Source: Candidatus Woesearchaeota archaeon (GTDB lineage: Archaea > Nanobdellota > Nanobdellia > SCGC-AAA011-G17 > GW2011-AR17). From it: a stretch of DNA of 44,681 bases. A program made the translations under genes and the position numbers. Shown here one piece after another: positions 12,463 to 44,681 of the stretch (position 1 is the stretch's first letter; every line of letters begins with the position of its first letter). Below the pieces are notes generated by a model. The model made no database searches. It was not told the origin of the DNA and saw only the letters and a list, made by a program, of their open reading frames with translations. Location of the stretch: contig JACRKH010000060.1 of NCBI GenBank assembly GCA_016235495.1, positions 1-44,681 on the forward strand. Direction: 5' to 3'.

Positions 12463-14562
12463 ATGTGCAGCATCATTGGAGCAATACAAAGCAGAGAAGC
12501 ATTTACATTTGTTCAGCAAGGACTATCTATAATGCACGAACGAGGAAGGGATGCATCAGCATACTTCGACGGGAAAATGCATTACGCGCAAAATCCCATT
12601 ACACTTCCCCCCTCTACTGCAGAAACTATTATAGGCCATGGCCTGCATGCAATAGTCAGCACATTGCCACAACCTTTGCAGGAAGCAAATGCAGTCTTCG
12701 CAGCAAACTGTGAAATCTACAACTGGAAAGAGCTCGCAAAAGAGCACAAACTCACTGTACGCAACGATGCAGAACTGCTTTTCAAACTGCTTCAGAAGGA
12801 AGGAATAGAAAAAACACTTCCCAAAATTCGAGGAGTCTATGCTTTTGTCTACCTTCAGAACAATACTCTCTACCTTGTAAGAGACATTCTTGGAATCAAA
12901 CCATTATTTTACGAGAAAAAGAATGGATTTCGTTTTGCATCAGAAAAAAAAGTACTTTCTTTAACAGCAACAGAACTCAATCCAAGAACAATACTGGCAT
13001 ATAACCTGAAAACAAAAAAACTTTCAACAAAAAAACGCCCTTTCTTTGCACTCAAACCTTTGCTCACAAAAGATATTCTGAATCAAGTAGAGAAGAAATT
13101 AAAAGAAGCAGTGATGATAAGAATACCTGAACAAAAATTCGCATTGCTTTTCTCTGGAGGTTTAGACTCAGTCCTCATTGCAAAATATCTCCAGGAATCT
13201 GGAAAAGATTTCACCTGTTACACCGCAGCAACGGATGAAAAAAGTCCTGACCTTCTCGCAGCAAAAGCAGCTGCAAAAGAAATGAAATTAAAACTAAAAT
13301 ATACACTCATTTCCAAAGAAGAGACAAAAAAATATCTTCAGAAGATTATCCCTCTCATCGAAGACAACAATGTTGTCAAAGTTGGAGTAGCACTTCCATT
13401 ATATATTGCTGCAGAACAAGCACAGAAGGATGCTAATAAAGTTATTTTCTCAGGCTCAGGTGCAGATGAACTCTTTGCAGGCTACCATCGCTACAAAGCA
13501 AGCGCTCTAGACAAGCTCAACAAAGACTGCTATTCTGATATTCTCAAAATATACGAAAGAAATTGTTACAGGGATGATGTTATTACGATGAACAATAATT
13601 TGGAGCTTCGCGTCCCATTCCTTGATAAAGAACTTGTTGCTTTGACATTGCGTATTCCTCCTGAATGGAAACTGCATGAAGGAACAGAAAAATATATTCT
13701 GAGAGAAATAGCAAAACAGAAAGGGATTCCAACACAGTTTGCAGAGAGAAAAAAAGTAGCAGCACAGTATGGTTCTGGCTTTGATAAAATTCTTGAAAAA
13801 TTAGCAAAGGAAGAAAAGAAAAACAAATCAGCATACCTTGCACAGTTCTCCTCAGTAAAAAATCTAAAGCTAGGAGCACTCATCAGCGGTGGAAAAGACA
13901 GTCTGCTTGCAGCATACATTATGAAGCAGCAAAACTACGAACTCTCCTGTCTCATCACCATAAAAAGTAAGAACACTGCGTCCTATATGTTTCATACTCC
14001 AAATATTCATCTTGCAGAACTCCAAGCAGAAGCAATGCAAGTACCAATTATTATTCAGGAGACAAAAGGAAACAAAGAAGGAGAGCTAAAAGATTTAGAG
14101 AAAGCATTGAAAGAAGCAAAGAAGAAATATAAGATTGAAGGAGTTATTTCTGGAGCACTCTATTCTAATTATCAGCGAGAAAGAATAGAAAGAATTGCAG
14201 ATAAATTAGGATTAAAGATCTTTTCTCCATTATGGCACATGGATCAGGAAAAAGAACTACAACAGCTCTTAGATCTAAAATTCCATTTCATACTCAGTGC
14301 AGTAGCAGCAGAAGGGCTAAATCACTCCTGGCTAGGAAGAGAGATAACAAAGAAAGACTTAGAAAATTTAAAAGAATTAAATAAGAAATATGGCATAAAT
14401 ATTGCCGGTGAGGGAGGGGAATATGAGTCCCTCGTTTTAAATTGTCCACTCTTTCATAAAAAAGTTCAAATTAAGGATGCAGAAATAATAATGGAGAATG
14501 AAAACACTGGGGTGTATAAAATTAAGAAAGCAGCGTTAAGTTTAAATAGATGCTTTACATAG
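12463..14562 (+). CDS. Asparagine-synthetase-like (GATase II + PP-loop) fused to Dph6-like diphthine-ammonia ligase domain
   Basis: N-terminal MCSIIGAI (Cys2 nucleophile), LFSGGLDSVLIA; C-terminal ALISGGKDSLLAAYIM, HSWLGREI, GEGGEYESLVLNCPLF. Confidence 0.92.
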   Translation: MCSIIGAIQSREAFTFVQQGLSIMHERGRDASAYFDGKMHYAQNPITLPPSTAETIIGHGLHAIVSTLPQPLQEANAVFAANCEIYNWKELAKEHKLTVRNDAELLFKLLQKEGIEKTLPKIRGVYAFVYLQNNTLYLVRDILGIKPLFYEKKNGFRFASEKKVLSLTATELNPRTILAYNLKTKKLSTKKRPFFALKPLLTKDILNQVEKKLKEAVMIRIPEQKFALLFSGGLDSVLIAKYLQESGKDFTCYTAATDEKSPDLLAAKAAAKEMKLKLKYTLISKEETKKYLQKIIPLIEDNNVVKVGVALPLYIAAEQAQKDANKVIFSGSGADELFAGYHRYKASALDKLNKDCYSDILKIYERNCYRDDVITMNNNLELRVPFLDKELVALTLRIPPEWKLHEGTEKYILREIAKQKGIPTQFAERKKVAAQYGSGFDKILEKLAKEEKKNKSAYLAQFSSVKNLKLGALISGGKDSLLAAYIMKQQNYELSCLITIKSKNTASYMFHTPNIHLAELQAEAMQVPIIIQETKGNKEGELKDLEKALKEAKKKYKIEGVISGALYSNYQRERIERIADKLGLKIFSPLWHMDQEKELQQLLDLKFHFILSAVAAEGLNHSWLGREITKKDLENLKELNKKYGINIAGEGGEYESLVLNCPLFHKKVQIKDAEIIMENENTGVYKIKKAALSLNRCFT

Positions 14563-36443: not shown

Positions 36444-36944
36444 TCAGATGCAATTTTTATACATTAATTCTAAAATTCTAAGGATTTTATCATTGTCTTT
36501 ATAAGCTATACAGTATTTTTCGTATAATTTTTTTAAAACCCTTTTTCCTTGTTCCTTTCCTTCAGAATTAAGAATAAACTGGGCGGCTATAGGATGAAAT
36601 AATGAAAGACCATCCGCATATCTAAATATTTTTCCTTCTGGGGTTAAAGGTTTACCAGAAGATCCATGATTCACTATACAATCTTTTTCAATGGCGCCAA
36701 GTTTGTATTTCTTTTCCAAAATCTCTAAGCTGAGTTGGGCATGGTTTTCTTCGTGAATGACTTTTCCAACATCATGAATATAGACTAAGGGCTCCAATTT
36801 TCCAATCTCTATGTTCTCCTCAATTGAGAGTGTCTCTAATAGAGCAAGGACACACCTAGAATGAATAAAATTCCAATCATAATCTTGCTTAGGCAAGATT
36901 TTGAATTTTTCTTTTGCAAATTCTTCTGCTTCTTTTATATTCAT
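36444..36944 (-). CDS. HD-domain hydrolase
   Basis: FIHSRCVLALLE, LVYIHDVGKVIHEENHAQ, IFRYADGLSLF. Confidence 0.8.
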   Translation of the reverse strand: MNIKEAEEFAKEKFKILPKQDYDWNFIHSRCVLALLETLSIEENIEIGKLEPLVYIHDVGKVIHEENHAQLSLEILEKKYKLGAIEKDCIVNHGSSGKPLTPEGKIFRYADGLSLFHPIAAQFILNSEGKEQGKRVLKKLYEKYCIAYKDNDKILRILELMYKNCI

Positions 36945-37750
36945 GTTGTTATCGGTCGTGTTTGGAGTATATAAATTTCATTTTTGACAATTCCCCATTC
37001 TATATCCTGAGGAACTCCAAAGAATCTTTCTATTTGAATTCCTTGTTGCATAAGCTCAAATATTTGGTATTTTTGAAGAACAGGTTCTGTATTCATAACG
37101 ACTCTTTCTTCAAGTTTACTTCCCCTAAGAAATAATCCTTTTTCTTGGTTTCCCCTTGTGTAATTATATCTTTTTTTTCCTTTGGCAGCTTCAATATGAT
37201 CTGGATTGACAATACCAGAAACGATATATTCCCCAGTACCAAATATTGCTTCAATAATGATTTCGCCTTTCTCCTGTGAGACAGGATTTTTTGTGAACAT
37301 TATTCCTGAGACATCACAGGGAAGCATCTCTTGAATGAGTATTGCAATATCCGCAACTGCATGTTGACCAGCATAATCCGCATATCTTTGTACTTTAGCC
37401 TTCTCTGGTGAAGAAATAACTTCCATACACGCATCTGCAAGCTCAGTATAAGATACTCCACATTTCGTGAGGAATTGTCCTGCAAAAGAATAGTTTCTAG
37501 AATCTTCACAAGTTGTTGAAGATCGTACAGAAAACGCTACGGCCTTTATGTCTTCTACTGCACTTTCAAGTTTTTCCTGTAAAATTTCTTTGTCGATTGT
37601 TTTTTTTATATATTGCGCTGCTTTGACAGGGATAATTATTCCCTTTGGAATAAGGAACTGAGGATAAAGCTGAAGAAGATTATAGGCTTTATTTCCTATT
37701 TCTTCCTTGCTTAATTCTTTTGCCTTTTGATAGCTTACCATTAATTCCAT
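36941..37750 (-). CDS. Stand-alone PPDK/PEP-synthase N-terminal ATP-binding domain
   Basis: IGNKAYNLLQL, FSVRSSTTCEDSRNYSFAGQF, QEMLPCDVSGIMFTKNP, QDIEWGIVKNEIYILQTRPIT. Confidence 0.92.
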   Translation of the reverse strand: MELMVSYQKAKELSKEEIGNKAYNLLQLYPQFLIPKGIIIPVKAAQYIKKTIDKEILQEKLESAVEDIKAVAFSVRSSTTCEDSRNYSFAGQFLTKCGVSYTELADACMEVISSPEKAKVQRYADYAGQHAVADIAILIQEMLPCDVSGIMFTKNPVSQEKGEIIIEAIFGTGEYIVSGIVNPDHIEAAKGKKRYNYTRGNQEKGLFLRGSKLEERVVMNTEPVLQKYQIFELMQQGIQIERFFGVPQDIEWGIVKNEIYILQTRPITT

Positions 37751-38661
37751 TATTCTATCTTATAGACTCTCCCAGCATCTGCATCAAGGTAAACTTTGTC
37801 ACCTGTACGAAGGCGTTTTGTCGCATTATTTGTTCCAACTATACAAGGAACTCCAATCTCCCGAGAAACAATTGCTGCATGGCAAAGGGTTCCTCCTTGA
37901 TCAGTTATAATTCCTTTTGAAGAAATCATATTAGGAGTCATATCAGGATCAGTTCTTGGTGCTACTAAAATCTCACCATCTTGAAAATCTGCAGTATATC
38001 CTTGGATAACTCTGCACAGACCTTCGACCTCTCCTAAAGATGCCTTTAAACCCTTAACTGCTAGAGTTAAATGATGATTATTCCGTTTTCGAAGTGAAAT
38101 AAAATTTTTCATATAACTAATCTCCATGACCTCAGTTAATTCTTGAGTAGAGTATTTCATAAGACCGGCAATAGGATCTGCAACAAGGATCTTACCTTCA
38201 TTTTCTCCATAAATAACGACATGATGAGTACAATCATCTGTAGGATATTTTATTTCAAGAATAGGAATTCTTCCTTCATTTAGCTCTTCAAGAAGTTTTT
38301 GAACAGTAAATTCTTTTCTCACATATTGAAAATGAGAGTTAGGTTCAAGTGATTTAATAATAGGCAGAAATTCCTTCATATATCTGCTCCATTTTGTTCT
38401 GGACATGAATTCTGGTTGCCCTATCCTAGGGATTTGCAACTTTACTTCAAGACCAAGACGCAGAGAATGCCGTGCAAGTTTTGGATAGCTTCCATACTCC
38501 CCATCACCGCCTTTCCAAAACCTAATTTTATCATGAAGGTACATTTCTTCTTCTTCTCCAAGAGGGAAAGTCTCTGGGAAGAAGTGGTGTAATACCATTA
38601 GGTATGATGATGCGACACATGTATAAGGTGTGCTTTGTATATACGTTTCAATATTTTCCAT
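37750..38661 (-). CDS. C39-like peptidase domain + PEP-utilizing phospho-His swivel domain
   Basis: IQSTPYTCVASSYLMVLHHF, DDCTHHVVIYGENEGKILVADP; C-terminal GIITDQGGTLCHAAIVSREIGVPCIVGTNNATKRLRTGDKVYLDADAGRVY; start at MENIETY after an SD (track ORF starts 38676). Confidence 0.88.
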   Translation of the reverse strand: MENIETYIQSTPYTCVASSYLMVLHHFFPETFPLGEEEEMYLHDKIRFWKGGDGEYGSYPKLARHSLRLGLEVKLQIPRIGQPEFMSRTKWSRYMKEFLPIIKSLEPNSHFQYVRKEFTVQKLLEELNEGRIPILEIKYPTDDCTHHVVIYGENEGKILVADPIAGLMKYSTQELTEVMEISYMKNFISLRKRNNHHLTLAVKGLKASLGEVEGLCRVIQGYTADFQDGEILVAPRTDPDMTPNMISSKGIITDQGGTLCHAAIVSREIGVPCIVGTNNATKRLRTGDKVYLDADAGRVYKIE

Positions 38662-38665
38662 GTTT

Positions 38666-39571
38666 TTATCCTCCAATTAATCTAAAAAATTCTTTTTGAT
38701 TTATCTCCAAGCAAAAATGATATACCTTAAGTTCTGGTATACTCTCTTTATATGTTTGAAAAACCAATTCTCTAAAAAGATAATCTACTATTCCTCCTTC
38801 AATGCTATAGCGTTTTCTCGGTTCTTCAAATCCTGCCCAATGAGACAAGCGCAGAAACCTATGAAGTAAAGTTCTTGTTTCTAAATCTGCTTTTTTAGAG
38901 CATAACCTTTCTATTTCTGTAGAAAATTTTTTTCTCGTGTCTTCTCTATTCTTTCTTATCCGTTCCAAGAGTGCTTCTTGTTTTGGATTGTAGAGCCTTT
39001 TTTGTTCCTGTTCAGCCATTGTAAAATCCCCATAGCTATATCTCTCTGCAAATTCCTCTACAGTTCTTTCTTTGGCTTCTGTTATAAGAAATAGCTCAAA
39101 TGAATCAATAGGGGGTATAATTTCCCTTCCTGTTAAATCCTCTAAGTTTGTTCCTAATTTTTGTAAGATTTGGGGAAGATTATTAGAAACATAAACTCTA
39201 ATTCCTCTATCATTATCCAAAAACCTTTTTGCTGTCTCTCCTATTCTGCTCTTTTCTTCAACAATCTCTGTTATGTCCTCTGCAGTATCGTAGGCAAATT
39301 TATCATGTGCATACCAGCTTGCAAAATAGATATTAATCCCTAGATCCAAACTCAGCTGTGATGTTAATTGTTCCTGGATTCTGGATTCAGAATCTTCTAA
39401 GGTACCATGCTGTTCCGCATAAAGAATTTCTTGCCGTATTTGGGCATAGCCTTTACCCACTCTTCTCACTAGTCCATTAATAACCGAAAATCGCTTCTTT
39501 TGGTCTAATGAGCTTCGCCAAGCATGATAGTGCTCTTCTTCTTTTAATGGAGTGAATTGTAATTCTTTCAT
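38666..39571 (-). CDS. Orphan protein (301 aa) in the radical SAM operon
   Basis: ORF directly downstream of the small peptide and hairpin; no family recognised. Confidence 0.75.
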   Translation of the reverse strand: MKELQFTPLKEEEHYHAWRSSLDQKKRFSVINGLVRRVGKGYAQIRQEILYAEQHGTLEDSESRIQEQLTSQLSLDLGINIYFASWYAHDKFAYDTAEDITEIVEEKSRIGETAKRFLDNDRGIRVYVSNNLPQILQKLGTNLEDLTGREIIPPIDSFELFLITEAKERTVEEFAERYSYGDFTMAEQEQKRLYNPKQEALLERIRKNREDTRKKFSTEIERLCSKKADLETRTLLHRFLRLSHWAGFEEPRKRYSIEGGIVDYLFRELVFQTYKESIPELKVYHFCLEINQKEFFRLIGG

Positions 39572-39582
39572 GTTTCATGTTA

Positions 39583-39602
39583 GGAGGGGATTTCTCCCCT
39601 CC
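39583..39602 (-). promoter_or_regulatory. Perfect 8-bp hairpin with GAAA tetraloop between peptide gene and 301-aa gene
   Basis: mRNA sense GGAGGGGA-GAAA-TCCCCTCC. Confidence 0.75.
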
Positions 39603-39608
39603 CAAATC

Positions 39609-39686
39609 TTAATTTTCTTCCTCGTCAAGGCTTCCACTAATCCCGCCACAAGCAAGGCAGGAAAACTGCCATAATACTTTTTCCAT
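39609..39686 (-). CDS. Putative precursor peptide (25 aa, CxxC)
   Basis: MEKVLWQFSCLACGGISGSLDEEEN; SD GGAGGT 7 nt upstream of ATG, start 3 nt after the radical SAM stop codon; not in track. Confidence 0.75.
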   Translation of the reverse strand: MEKVLWQFSCLACGGISGSLDEEEN

Positions 39687-39689
39687 TTT

Positions 39690-40748
39690 CTAGACCTCCT
39701 TCACCATTTTTTCAACAAAAAAAGAACAAATAGGATTCTCTGCAAACAATTTCTTTTCTTTCCAATATCCATATGCACAGCAACCGCCACAAAGCTTGAG
39801 ATAGGTACAATGAGCACATCTGCCACCCATATTCCTTTTCCTCATTTGAACAAATTCTGGGCAGCTATCCCATACATCTTTGATATCTCTATTTCCCAAG
39901 TCTGCTATCTCTAAGTTATTAAGCATTGGACAGAAAGAAACATTTCCTTTATTGTTAATGTACATATAACTAATTCCCACACTACAGCCTGAATAAACAT
40001 CTAATGACCCATATCTTCTTTCTATTTCTGCAACTAATTCTGTATTTGCAACAAGAGCTAGAGGATCACCAGAAAAATAAGGCATATCATATTTTTTGCT
40101 TAATGTAGGAAGTTTTTTTAATATTTCTGCATAAGACTCTTTATCCAGAGAGAGTTCATCATAATTATTCTCAGCATTTGCAACATAAATACAACCTCTG
40201 AGACCGAGTTCTACAGCTCCTTTTTCTTTTCCGAATTTAAAGAATCTTTCTATTTGATCCTGATTTCTCTTATTAATTGTCATTCGAAGAACAAAATCAA
40301 TATTATTCCTTTTTGCAATATCAATAGCTCTAAGTACCAGTTCAAAAGAGCGATTATTCTGCCTTAACCAATTATGTGTTTCTGCATTTACCCCATCCAA
40401 GGAAAATTGAATTCGTGTCATACCAGATGCTTTAAGCTTTTTTGCATAGCCCTCCGTAAATAGAGAGCCATTACTTACAACTATAATCTTCACATCTTTA
40501 TCTTGTGATTTTATGAATGCAAGAATTGCAGGAAGATCTTTATGTAACAATGGCTCACCTCCACCAATCTCTAACCATTTAAGATCACTCTTCCAATGCA
40601 AAAATATATTTTTTAAGATTTTCTTGGTTTTAGATAATTCGAGCATATCTTCTGAGAAACGTCCTCTGCAATGAAGGCAAGTAAAGTTACACTTCCCCGT
40701 AATATCAATATGTATTACCCTTGGGACGAATTCATTGTCTTGGAGCAT
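39690..40748 (-). CDS. Radical SAM/SPASM enzyme, PqqE-like layout
   Basis: ITGKCNFTCLHC, WLEIGGGEPLL, C-terminal CAHCTYLKLCGGCCAYGYW..NPIC. Confidence 0.94.
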   Translation of the reverse strand: MLQDNEFVPRVIHIDITGKCNFTCLHCRGRFSEDMLELSKTKKILKNIFLHWKSDLKWLEIGGGEPLLHKDLPAILAFIKSQDKDVKIIVVSNGSLFTEGYAKKLKASGMTRIQFSLDGVNAETHNWLRQNNRSFELVLRAIDIAKRNNIDFVLRMTINKRNQDQIERFFKFGKEKGAVELGLRGCIYVANAENNYDELSLDKESYAEILKKLPTLSKKYDMPYFSGDPLALVANTELVAEIERRYGSLDVYSGCSVGISYMYINNKGNVSFCPMLNNLEIADLGNRDIKDVWDSCPEFVQMRKRNMGGRCAHCTYLKLCGGCCAYGYWKEKKLFAENPICSFFVEKMVKEV

Positions 40749-40996: not shown

Positions 40997-41021
40997 CCTT
41001 TTTCCTTGTTCCTTTCCTTCA
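40997..41021. repeat. 25-nt exact copy of 36540-36564
   Basis: cctttttccttgttcctttccttca at both places. Confidence 0.7.
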
Positions 41022-41660: not shown

Positions 41661-41858
41661 ATGAACAAGAAAAAACTTATAAAGATAAAAAGCCTTAGAA
41701 AAAAGATGAAAAGTAAGCTAATAGGGAAAGAATCTCATCTTGACAGACTCATTGGAATTATTCCTAATAATGGAAGAAATTCAGTCAATGAAGTGAGAAA
41801 AATAAGAAAAAAACTTTCCAAAGAGCCTTTTGACATAGAATATATCAATTCCTTGTAA
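41661..41858 (+). CDS. Small basic protein, possible antitoxin
   Basis: 65-aa ORF convergent and overlapping with the PIN gene. Confidence 0.45.
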   Translation: MNKKKLIKIKSLRKKMKSKLIGKESHLDRLIGIIPNNGRNSVNEVRKIRKKLSKEPFDIEYINSL

Positions 41859-42279
41859 ATTCTTCTGGTTTTATGGCAAAGACACCCTCAGCATCTGCAA
41901 TAAGGAGAAGCTGTTTATCTCTTGTAACAAGGACTGCTCCTATACGTTCTGTAATACAAAGATGGACAAGATCATAATAGCTAATAGAAAAATTATATTT
42001 CACCTCTAATTTTCTTGCCTTATTTTTATCTTCTAAGCTAACCTCTACTCTTTGAAAAGTCTGTAATTCTTCAAGAATGAGAAAATAATCCTTTTTTTCA
42101 AGCTTAATATCTAGTTCTCTTAAAACAATGCCAGAATAAACGATATCATCATAATGAGAACCTTCAACACAATGAAGAAAATCTCTTGCAATTTCCCAGT
42201 AGGGCTTTCCTTTACGAGCATCCCCTTCTTTCTTAAAAAGATTCAGCCAAATGCAGGTATCTACATAGTAAAGAGTCAT
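41845..42279 (-). CDS. PIN-domain protein
   Basis: MTLYYVDTCIWLNLF, SYYDLVHLCITERIGAVLVTRDKQLL; start at MTLYYVD (track ORF to 42318). Confidence 0.85.
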   Translation of the reverse strand: MTLYYVDTCIWLNLFKKEGDARKGKPYWEIARDFLHCVEGSHYDDIVYSGIVLRELDIKLEKKDYFLILEELQTFQRVEVSLEDKNKARKLEVKYNFSISYYDLVHLCITERIGAVLVTRDKQLLLIADAEGVFAIKPEEFTRN

Positions 42280-42358
42280 AAGTGGTGAAGAGAAAAAAGC
42301 CTTAATAAAAGTGAACAAAGAAAATCCGAAAATCTTTCAGGTTTTAATATCTAAGAAT

Positions 42359-42805
42359 CTACTTCAGCTCCCGTAGATACTCCTTCACCCGGGAAACAAT
42401 ACCCAATAAATAAAATTTCTCTATCTTTTCTTCAAACAAGCAAACCATATCATCCTCATTCTCATGAATGCGATAATTATTTCGCACTTTCTCCACAAAA
42501 TAAAGATCTCTCAATCGTTTCACCTGCCTTCGGATATTTGATGCAGCAATGCCATGCAAAGCTAATTTTTCCTCTTTTCTTTTTGCAACAACAAACTCCT
42601 GAATTTCATCACAGCTCATCTCCCTCTTTTGCTCTAAAAGAACCTGAAAAATATCCACAATCACATCTCTCGAATCACCCGGCTGCAGAAGTCCAGTAGA
42701 AAGACAAATCTTTCGTATCAAATCCCTCTTGGGCATGTTATAAGGTTTTTCATACTTTCTCAGCGTCAGTTCTGCCAAGGGGATATCTTTAGAGATTTTT
42801 GTCAT
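42359..42805 (-). CDS. Winged-HTH-like hypothetical protein
   Basis: MSCDEIQEFVVAKRKEEKLALHGIAASNIRRQVKRLRDLYFVEKV. Confidence 0.6.
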   Translation of the reverse strand: MTKISKDIPLAELTLRKYEKPYNMPKRDLIRKICLSTGLLQPGDSRDVIVDIFQVLLEQKREMSCDEIQEFVVAKRKEEKLALHGIAASNIRRQVKRLRDLYFVEKVRNNYRIHENEDDMVCLFEEKIEKFYLLGIVSRVKEYLRELK

Positions 42806-42816
42806 TTTTTGCCTCC
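42788..42816. repeat. 29-nt direct repeat, copy 1 (other copy 43620-43648)
   Basis: tttagagatttttgtcattttttgcctcc exact in both copies. Confidence 0.95.
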
Positions 42817-43637
42817 AGTTTTTTCATTCCAGTATCTTTTGTAAGAAGACTCATTTGTTCTATTGCAATTTCATTTAATTTTACTAACCTTTTTGCTTTG
42901 TCTAATTTCTCTTTTATAAACAAAGCATTGAGATTCTCTAAGTTGGATAAACAAACGAGCTGGCAAACATCAGCATAATCCCTCATATTACCTTCAAATG
43001 TAGGATTCTTATTTTTCCATTCTTTTGCAGTCATCCCGAAAAGTGCTAAATTAAGTATATCAGCTTCTGTGGCATAAATAAGCATTTCTTCAGAAGCAGT
43101 AATTTTCTCAGGAATTAAATTATTCTTAATAGCCTCAGTATGAACCCTATAATTTATTTTTGTTAAATTTCTTTTGATATCCCAATCCAAAGATTTTCTT
43201 TCACTTTCTTCATTTTTGAGCCTCTGAAACTCTTTTATTAAATAGAGTTTAAATTCTGCAGAAATCCATGAAGCAAATTCAAATGCTATGTCCTTATGTG
43301 CATATGTCCCACTATCATATCTTCCACTTTTTGAAACTATTCCTATTGCACGAGTTGTTTCTATCCATTTTTGTGGAGCTAATACGAAGGCATTTGAACC
43401 AGCTTCATTTCTAAAGGAGTCGAATTCGATCCCTTTAAACAAAGGATTATTTATTTTTTCCCATAAACCTAAAAATTCTATGGTGCTTTTTGCCCGCATC
43501 CAATTTCTAACTACATCTTTAGGTTCTTCTGGATTCTTATACCTTGCAATATCAGTAAGAGAAATATAATCTTCTTTATCTTTGTTATAGAGACTTATTT
43601 CCTTATGTAAAACATTCATTTTAGAGATTTTTGTCAT
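42789..43637 (-). CDS. KilA-N domain protein
   Basis: YISLTDIARYKN, VRNWMRAKSTIEFLGLWE, GRYDSGTYAHKDIAFEFASWISAEFKLYLIKEFQRLK; start at MTKISKMN. Confidence 0.92.
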   Translation of the reverse strand: MTKISKMNVLHKEISLYNKDKEDYISLTDIARYKNPEEPKDVVRNWMRAKSTIEFLGLWEKINNPLFKGIEFDSFRNEAGSNAFVLAPQKWIETTRAIGIVSKSGRYDSGTYAHKDIAFEFASWISAEFKLYLIKEFQRLKNEESERKSLDWDIKRNLTKINYRVHTEAIKNNLIPEKITASEEMLIYATEADILNLALFGMTAKEWKNKNPTFEGNMRDYADVCQLVCLSNLENLNALFIKEKLDKAKRLVKLNEIAIEQMSLLTKDTGMKKLEAKNDKNL

Positions 43638-43648
43638 TTTTTGCCTCC
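43620..43648. repeat. 29-nt direct repeat, copy 2
   Basis: Identical to 42788-42816. Confidence 0.95.
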
Positions 43649-43728
43649 TATCCAATATCTAACAGTATCAAATCTGTCATGGTTAAACTATTTCTTCGAA
43701 TCACTGCTTAAAACTTATAAGAAAAAGA

Positions 43729-43763
43729 CTATTTAAAGCTGGCGCGGGGGCATGCCGGCTGTC
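43729..43763 (-). promoter_or_regulatory. GC-rich box plus TATA-like box, similar to 535-567
   Basis: Minus strand gacagccggcatgcccccgc...ctttaaatag; 17/20 match to the copy at 535. Confidence 0.35.
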
Positions 43764-43767
43764 CAAG

Positions 43768-44604
43768 CTACAGCGTATCCCAAGGGCTTTTAATTCTAGA
43801 GATATCCTTTGTACTCACTTTTGTATATATTTCAGTGGTCTTCAAGTCACTATGCCCTAATAGTTTTTGGATATAGCGTATATCAGTTCCTTGCTCCAAA
43901 AGATGTGTTGCAAAAGAATGGCGAAGCATATGAGGGTGAAGCTGAATACCTGCTTGTTTTCCTGCATTCTTAAGAACTGCCTGCACAGGCTTTTTCGTAT
44001 ATTTCCCTTCTCTCCCTTCTAAAACATATTCTGTCTTAAAGCTATACTCACTGTAATATCGCAGCAAATCCCTCTGTAAAGATGCAGACATGAGTGTCAC
44101 ACGATCTTTAGCTCCCTTTCCTTGCCGCACAAAAAGAAGATTTCTGTCAAAATCCAAATCCTTTCTTTTCAGGTCAATGAGCTCAGAAAGCCGAAGACCG
44201 CTGGAATAAAGAAGTTCAATGATAATCTTATGTTTGAGATTCTTTGTTGCAGATAAAAGCTCTTTTATCTTCTCTTGACTGATGACTTTTGGCAGCTGTT
44301 TTATTCTCTTTTTTACAGGAACCTTTTCCGCAAATGCTGTTTGTTGTAATATTTCCATAAAGAAGAATTTGAGTGCTGCATAGAGAAGCCGTGAAGAGTT
44401 GACAGAAATATTTCTGAGTAGGAGATAGGATCTAACACTCTCAGGGTTGAGGCAAAGCGAACTTTTCTCACAGAAGTCTAAGAATTTCCCTGTGTGAAAA
44501 ACATATGCTTTCTTTGTTTGAGGGCTGTATCCCTTTAAATCACACAGATCCTTGAGTTCTTGCAGGTATGCTTCCTTTTTTAGGGTATAATCCAATTGTT
44601 CCAT
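43768..44604 (-). CDS. xerA: Tyrosine recombinase, XerA-like
   Basis: LLYSSGLRLSELIDLKRKDLDF, HPHMLRHSFATHLLEQGTDIRYIQKLLGHSDLKTTEIYTKVS. Confidence 0.93.
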   Translation of the reverse strand: MEQLDYTLKKEAYLQELKDLCDLKGYSPQTKKAYVFHTGKFLDFCEKSSLCLNPESVRSYLLLRNISVNSSRLLYAALKFFFMEILQQTAFAEKVPVKKRIKQLPKVISQEKIKELLSATKNLKHKIIIELLYSSGLRLSELIDLKRKDLDFDRNLLFVRQGKGAKDRVTLMSASLQRDLLRYYSEYSFKTEYVLEGREGKYTKKPVQAVLKNAGKQAGIQLHPHMLRHSFATHLLEQGTDIRYIQKLLGHSDLKTTEIYTKVSTKDISRIKSPWDTL

Positions 44605-44681
44605 ACCAGTCTTACCACGCATGGGATTATAAGCCTATAGCCTGTAAAACCGCAAATCTTTCGGAATCAAAGCTCTAAAAC

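Follow-up and report, generated by a model that had tools for sequence, protein, structure and literature searches.

Several described systems for ribosomally synthesized and post-translationally modified peptides (RiPPs) encode a short cysteine-containing peptide beside a radical S-adenosylmethionine (SAM) maturase with a SPASM domain, including those of SkfB (sactipeptide), CteB (SCIFF ranthipeptide), and the ACGX family TIGR04340. Phosphoenolpyruvate (PEP) synthase, pyruvate phosphate dikinase (PPDK), rifampin phosphotransferase (RPH), and the prodigiosin ligase PigC combine an ATP domain with a phospho-His swivel, and C39 peptidases and their relatives (PCAT1/ComA, DUF3335, and BtrH/CtaG-like proteins) have a Cys-His-Asp triad in common. 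Here we analyze a 44,681-nt stretch of DNA from a Candidatus Woesearchaeota archaeon (contig JACRKH010000060.1, assembly GCA_016235495.1; hereafter the window, at its full length), in which six tightly packed minus-strand genes, from 40748 down to 36444, encode a radical SAM/SPASM enzyme, a 25-aa peptide, an orphan protein, a C39-like domain fused to a phospho-His swivel, a stand-alone PPDK_N ATP-binding domain, and an HD-superfamily hydrolase (Table 1). We propose that these genes form a RiPP-like peptide-maturation cassette, with a probability of about 0.62. Compared with the radical SAM/SPASM RiPP systems, the cassette adds the orphan, C39-swivel, PPDK_N, and HD proteins, and its precursor is very short. 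It also differs from the ACGX system, since its radical SAM enzyme reaches only 98 of 400 bits against TIGR04340 and its peptide contains a single ACGG instead of an ACGX repeat. Unlike in PEP synthase, PPDK, RPH, and PigC, which have the same catalytic residues, the ATP domain and swivel of the cassette are on separate proteins, and the C39 domain occupies the place of the triosephosphate isomerase (TIM) barrel of PEP synthase and PPDK or of the drug-binding domain of RPH; the single polypeptide with a drug-binding middle domain that characterizes RPH is not found here. The cassette peptide has the GG associated with C39 peptidases, but the cassette lacks an ATP-binding cassette (ABC) transporter, its C39 domain is swivel-fused, and positions -4 and -7 of the leader are not canonical. 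We found no description of the cassette or its architecture, and none of a Woesearchaea RiPP pathway, in the open-access PubMed Central literature, and to our knowledge a protease-swivel fusion with its ATP domain in trans has not been described before.

Using the orphan protein as a query against GTDB species genomes returned one relative, JAGWAD010000019.1 (G044:C30; hereafter L032), from a Candidatus Woesearchaeota archaeon of the same order and a different family. L032 carries all six genes in unchanged order, and the identities to the window are 73% for the radical SAM enzyme, 80% (20/25) for the peptide, 57% for the orphan, 66% for the C39-swivel protein, 53% for PPDK_N, and 52% for the HD hydrolase. 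A profile of the two orphans detected a third, distant copy in genome G105 (E = 4e-10), at a locus (L038) with genes for a radical SAM enzyme (38% identity), the orphan (28%), C39 as a protein by itself (198 aa), and a peptide of 34 aa, plus an HD gene (45%) that is convergent to the other cassette genes. The HD profile pointed to a fourth locus with a variant gene set (L073, genome G407), where the genes abut or overlap at their ends and encode a 30-aa ORF (open reading frame; MEKEKNLKVVDHKNIEKICGLGPEESSKED), a 501-aa protein, a radical SAM enzyme of a different type, a swivel on its own (109 aa), PPDK_N (244 aa), and an HD protein (182 aa). The 501-aa protein is assigned as C39-containing because of the triad pattern in its C-terminal part and the gene order; in profile-profile comparisons it is weakly related to both the orphan (E = 0.09) and the C39 domain (E = 0.017). 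Cassette members necessarily score high against profiles made from themselves, and these scores were not counted as evidence. The distribution is very patchy, with the orphan in 3/371 sampled genomes of the phylum and 3/378 of the class, and the full C39-swivel fusion in 2/190 relatives, all of these counts being samples and not censuses. The gene set that an earlier reading of the window, made from its letters alone (the sequence-only reading), had put forward as a peptide-modification operon is kept in related genomes, as a whole in L032, as a core in L038, and as a variant in L073. Judged from the sequences, recurrence in a second archaeon and of the core in a third looks like a real peptide-making pathway.

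Modification of the peptide is well supported by this conservation. The L032 peptide (MEKVLWQFSCVACGGISGNLEEECD) is encoded at the equivalent position, and the L038 peptide (MEKNEQAQSEALYEFGCVACGGLTPEEVCEEVKE) starts with GTG and closes the gene run, immediately behind the C39 gene; the motif L[WY]xFxC[VL]ACGG is common to the window, L032, and L038 peptides. This motif was found only at those three cassettes in six frames of 0.71 Mb of fetched DNA, and degenerate DNA patterns for it, run on sets of 10 and 95 genomes, matched only cassettes, with 0 matches for reversed controls. A further match, in viral contig L144, lies antisense within a phage gene and was rejected as chance. Because the peptide gene is preceded by a good Shine-Dalgarno sequence (AAGGAGG), its product is 80% identical in L032, and its motif is restricted to three cassettes in the fetched DNA, we consider that the ORF did not arise by chance. 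The motif accompanies the related radical SAM enzymes of the window, L032, and L038 and is missing at L073, where the enzyme belongs to another type. That motif and enzyme type vary together is the best sequence evidence for the peptide being the substrate of the radical SAM enzyme, so that the role given to it in the sequence-only reading is well supported. The enzyme itself matches Radical_SAM (E = 5e-24) and SPASM (E = 3e-7) in Pfam, and the cysteines of its CX3CX2C motif (C20/C24/C27) and SPASM domain (C255, C273, C311, C314, C320, C323, and C341) are invariant in L032 and L038. Its closest solved structure is the sactipeptide maturase SkfB (6efn), with CteB (5wgg) among the nearest, aligned over both halves. 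As in RiPP cassettes, a short precursor gene stands beside a modifying enzyme, and the two are kept together in the window, L032, and L038. A radical SAM match in viral contigs (L042, 28%) was not informative, and PADLOC pVip matches reflect generic radical SAM similarity.

The fusion protein matches PEP-utilizers in Pfam (E = 3e-26), and its swivel domain (residues ~203-306), with H266 in GGTLCHAAI, matches the PEP synthase swivel 8a8e in PDB profile searches (E = 2e-25). The C39 domain (residues ~10-195) matches DUF3335 'Peptidase_C39 like' (PF11814, E = 7e-6) and Peptidase_C39 (PF03412, E = 1e-4) barely over the gathering cut-off, and the C39 domains of L038 and L073 fall below it. Its best PDB profile match is the PCAT1 C39 peptidase (7n87, E = 1.6e-4), which is also the best fold match of a low-confidence model (pLDDT, predicted local distance difference test, 48) that lends weak support only. 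An alignment of the four cassettes has 14 invariant columns, and the Cys, His, and Asp proposed as catalytic in the sequence-only reading (C20, H151, and D167) are aligned and invariant in 4/4 of them. The PPDK_N protein matches Pfam with E = 2e-43 and RPH and PEP synthase structures with E-values down to 3.5e-26, and K21, R76, T95, E251, Q263, and R265 are invariant in three cassettes. The activity of RPH depends on Lys22, Arg117, and Thr136, which place the ATP phosphates (PMC4844700), and these residues match K21, R76, and T95 of the cassette protein. The phosphate-binding Lys and Arg of the ATP domain and the swivel His of a PEP-utilizer are all found here. The Pfam hidden Markov model (HMM) search agrees with every domain call made from the sequence, including the split PEP-utilizer transferase, and detected no PEP/pyruvate TIM barrel in any cassette gene.

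The HD hydrolase (Pfam HD, E = 9e-7; H28, H57-D58, H68, H93, and D111) is ~42-52% identical to the HD proteins at the three other cassettes, with invariant metal residues, and every strong relative in the phylum sample (at least 190 bits) maps to one of the four cassette loci. Among other HD relatives, that of G388 (L074 3052-3462) is a decayed gene and those in L075 and L076 have unrelated surroundings. Another family, with a small HD protein beside other genes, was seen at L077, L078, L079, and L080; a MoaA-like radical SAM gene is present in L077 and L080 (partial in L078), a kinase-like gene in L079, and an orphan of ~300 aa next to the small HD protein in L077, L079, and L080.

The orphan protein has the invariant motifs HD, EEFA, YGD, EEPRxR, and DYxFRE, and is mostly helical in a low-confidence model. 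No credible match to it was found in Pfam, NCBIfam, PHROGs, PDB, PADLOC, plasmids, or viral contigs, and an AlphaFold model from three alignment rows (pLDDT 39) was unusable and was discarded. The suggestion of the sequence-only reading that this 301-aa protein is the substrate-binding part of the phosphotransferase is not supported, as profile methods detected no homology and the orphan is kept in L038 without a phosphotransferase. These methods compared it with the helical domains that archaeal swivel proteins carry and gave no sign of a relationship, which argues against it being a helical substrate domain of PEP-utilizers, and a motif similarity noticed by eye (W..EEPRKR..DYLFREL versus ..QDLRKK..) failed in hhalign with reversed controls, in hmmsearch with shuffles, and with a motif HMM.

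We propose a maturation route of five steps, of which the last three are progressively less certain. The peptide would be produced in excess, from a gene with its own Shine-Dalgarno sequence and a hairpin behind it, and the radical SAM enzyme would then alter the L[WY]xFxC[VL]ACGG core, most likely by a crosslink with Cys or aromatic residues. The C39 domain would next bind the peptide and cut at or near the GG, which is present in 3/4 peptides. The ATP domain would phosphorylate H266 of the swivel, which would swing to whatever species the C39 domain holds and either phosphorylate it or activate its carboxylate; because L038 has no dedicated phosphotransferase, this step would be an addition to the pathway and not part of its core. 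By analogy with RPH, holding the acceptor would fall to the fusion partner of the swivel; with C39 in that position, the peptide or a thioester or product on the C39 domain is the likely acceptor. Finally, the HD hydrolase may act on a phosphorylated intermediate or by-product. The phosphate acceptor, the role of the orphan, and the HD step are inferred. A more specific form of this proposal, which we offer tentatively and consider less probable than its negation, is that a phospho-His carrier tethered to the C39 domain delivers the energy of ATP to the radical SAM-modified peptide, held or freshly released; the cassette would then define a new RiPP class, whose product, a phosphopeptide or an acyl-phosphate-activated peptide, would subsequently be ligated or capped.

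Several observations weigh against a RiPP-like maturation cassette. It contains no transporter and no recognized RiPP recognition element, no swivel or PPDK_N gene is adjacent in L038, and a stand-alone PPDK_N was not found in the L038 genome. The radical SAM enzyme has its top NCBIfam scores with the heme enzymes AhbD (164 bits) and NirJ2 (156 bits), far under their cut-offs of 500; among the matches listed, it is also not above the cut-off of any radical SAM maturase family, which membership of a RiPP cassette does not strictly require. All that the L073 peptide shares with the others is its MEK start, CG, and acidic tail, and the leader around the GG departs from the canonical C39 form, with A at -4 and S at -7. 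In addition, a close HD relative in G507 (L099 8146-8673) stands alone, adjoining a proteasome subunit gene. The same machinery could instead make a small intracellular peptide-derived cofactor or redox- or metal-binding compound, similar to pyrroloquinoline quinone (PQQ) or mycofactocin, and not a secreted or signaling peptide. This is somewhat unlikely, yet it survives best among the alternatives: the peptide is very short and highly constant, with two conserved Cys and an aromatic pair, a transporter is missing, and the radical SAM enzyme shows a low-score relation to the PqqE and mycofactocin maturase families. However, the cassette has no candidate cofactor-using enzyme, and its patchy spread (3/371 genomes) is ill-suited to a core cofactor.

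We next considered whether the swivel and PPDK_N genes, perhaps with the HD gene, are an ordinary split small-molecule phosphotransferase that lies beside the peptide genes by chance, the C39 domain binding another compound. As in the cassette, a stand-alone PPDK_N gene is next to a gene for a swivel fused to another domain in L082, L101, and L103, where that domain is helical and not C39. The recurrence of such pairs in several further genomes of this phylum, together with the absence of the pair from L038, is consistent with a chance neighbor, and no radical SAM or peptide genes were seen beside the archaeal pairs in the stretches read. They also qualify the sequence-only reading, which had stressed split modules in reversed order: the split is confirmed, but it is not special, and the unusual point of the cassette is that the domain joined to the swivel is C39. 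This covalent fusion occurs in two genomes with gene ends that overlap both neighbors, and in L073 the swivel and PPDK_N genes again overlap or abut the radical SAM and HD genes, which makes a chance association improbable. Tandem paralogues of the helical domain-swivel protein accompany stand-alone PPDK_N in L082, L083, L084, L101, and L103; at these loci, a single genome can have as many as 12 swivel matches, and a 1763-aa protein contains several swivels.

The short ORF could also be a regulatory leader peptide (an upstream ORF or attenuator acting with the hairpin) and not a substrate. The hairpin directly follows the ORF in the window (dG -19.9 kcal/mol, z -4.5), a different G/C hairpin is present at the equivalent place in L032 (-11.5 kcal/mol, z -1.7), and the window and L032 do not differ in the first 30 nt of this gene, compared with ~54% identity of conserved codons elsewhere (P ~0.008), which points to a possible extra nucleotide-level constraint on the start of the gene. 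We nevertheless regard a leader role as very unlikely, since L038 keeps the motif at the protein level in an ORF that comes after the C39 gene and has no significant hairpin behind it (z -0.1). Least probable of all is that the radical SAM enzyme is an AhbD/NirJ-type tetrapyrrole enzyme and the cassette serves heme-like metabolism, because the AhbD and NirJ2 scores, although the highest in NCBIfam, are far below their cut-offs, the cassette has no heme genes, the nearest PDB structure is SkfB, and the adjacent peptide gene has a motif that tracks the type of radical SAM enzyme.

Table 1. Coordinates of the cassette genes, the hairpin, and the genes of a second radical SAM/peptide unit in the window
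Feature	Position	Strand	Size	Remarks
Radical SAM/SPASM protein	39690..40748	-	352 aa	Pfam PF04055/PF13186
Precursor-like peptide	39609..39686	-	25 aa	MEKVLWQFSCLACGGISGSLDEEEN; core L[WY]xFxC[VL]ACGG
Hairpin between the peptide and orphan genes	39580..39605	-		11-bp stem, 4-nt loop
Orphan protein	38666..39571	-	301 aa	
C39-like domain + PEP-utilizer phospho-His swivel fusion	37750..38676	-	308 aa	Counted from TTG
Stand-alone PPDK_N ATP-binding domain	36941..37750	-	269 aa	
HD-superfamily hydrolase	36444..36944	-	166 aa	
Second-unit radical SAM/SPASM protein	29895-28822	-		DynA-like, 245/450 bits
Second-unit APH-family kinase	28832-28011	-		
Second-unit histidine-phosphatase-family protein	28014-27448	-		

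The six ORFs were all found where they had first been placed, and their touching or overlapping ends are exact: the swivel and ATP-domain genes have one base in common (TAATG at 37750), and an ATGA overlap (36941-36944) joins the ATP-domain and HD genes. The ATG at 38661, with GGAGGA ahead, is a more likely start of the C39-swivel protein than the TTG at 38676 and would give it 303 aa. The cassette is directly followed by archaeal genes for ribosomal proteins L1, L10, and P1. In three congeners, genes for a HemK-type methyltransferase and ribosomal L1 flank this spot with other genes and no cassette, and the L032 cassette adjoins other genes. Genes for a PIN protein, a KilA-N protein, and a phage-type integrase at 41845-44622, just upstream of the cassette, suggest a mobile neighborhood. 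A perfect 25-bp direct repeat (36540-36564, inside the HD gene, and 40997-41021) brackets most of the cassette and is absent from the five congener loci examined. Horizontal spread of the cassette is likely from these sequence comparisons.

The window also contains a second radical SAM/peptide unit on the minus strand (30066-27448), which begins with a 32-aa ORF (MKNENVKAVVLEALSDKEILASYSDHYGAESY) at 30066-29968 and in which the ends of the radical SAM, kinase, and phosphatase genes touch or overlap. In both units of the window a phosphotransferase comes with a phosphohydrolase, a weak argument for phosphorylation being part of such pathways. A radical SAM enzyme with 36% identity to that of the second unit is encoded at L146 1174-2580, with a 96-aa ORF ahead whose C-terminus is rich in YKEYKDYKDY. 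Elsewhere in the window, positions 12463-14562 encode a 699-aa fusion of asparagine-synthase-like and diphthine-ammonia-ligase (Dph6) domains.

If the cassette is a peptide-maturation pathway, Woesearchaea would possess such a pathway with an enzyme in which a protease is fused to a phospho-His swivel and the ATP domain acts in trans. The question of whether Woesearchaea make modified peptides at all would become testable. The same applies to split PEP-utilizer transferases, which recur in the phylum without known substrates and may work by tethering the swivel to an acceptor-binding domain.

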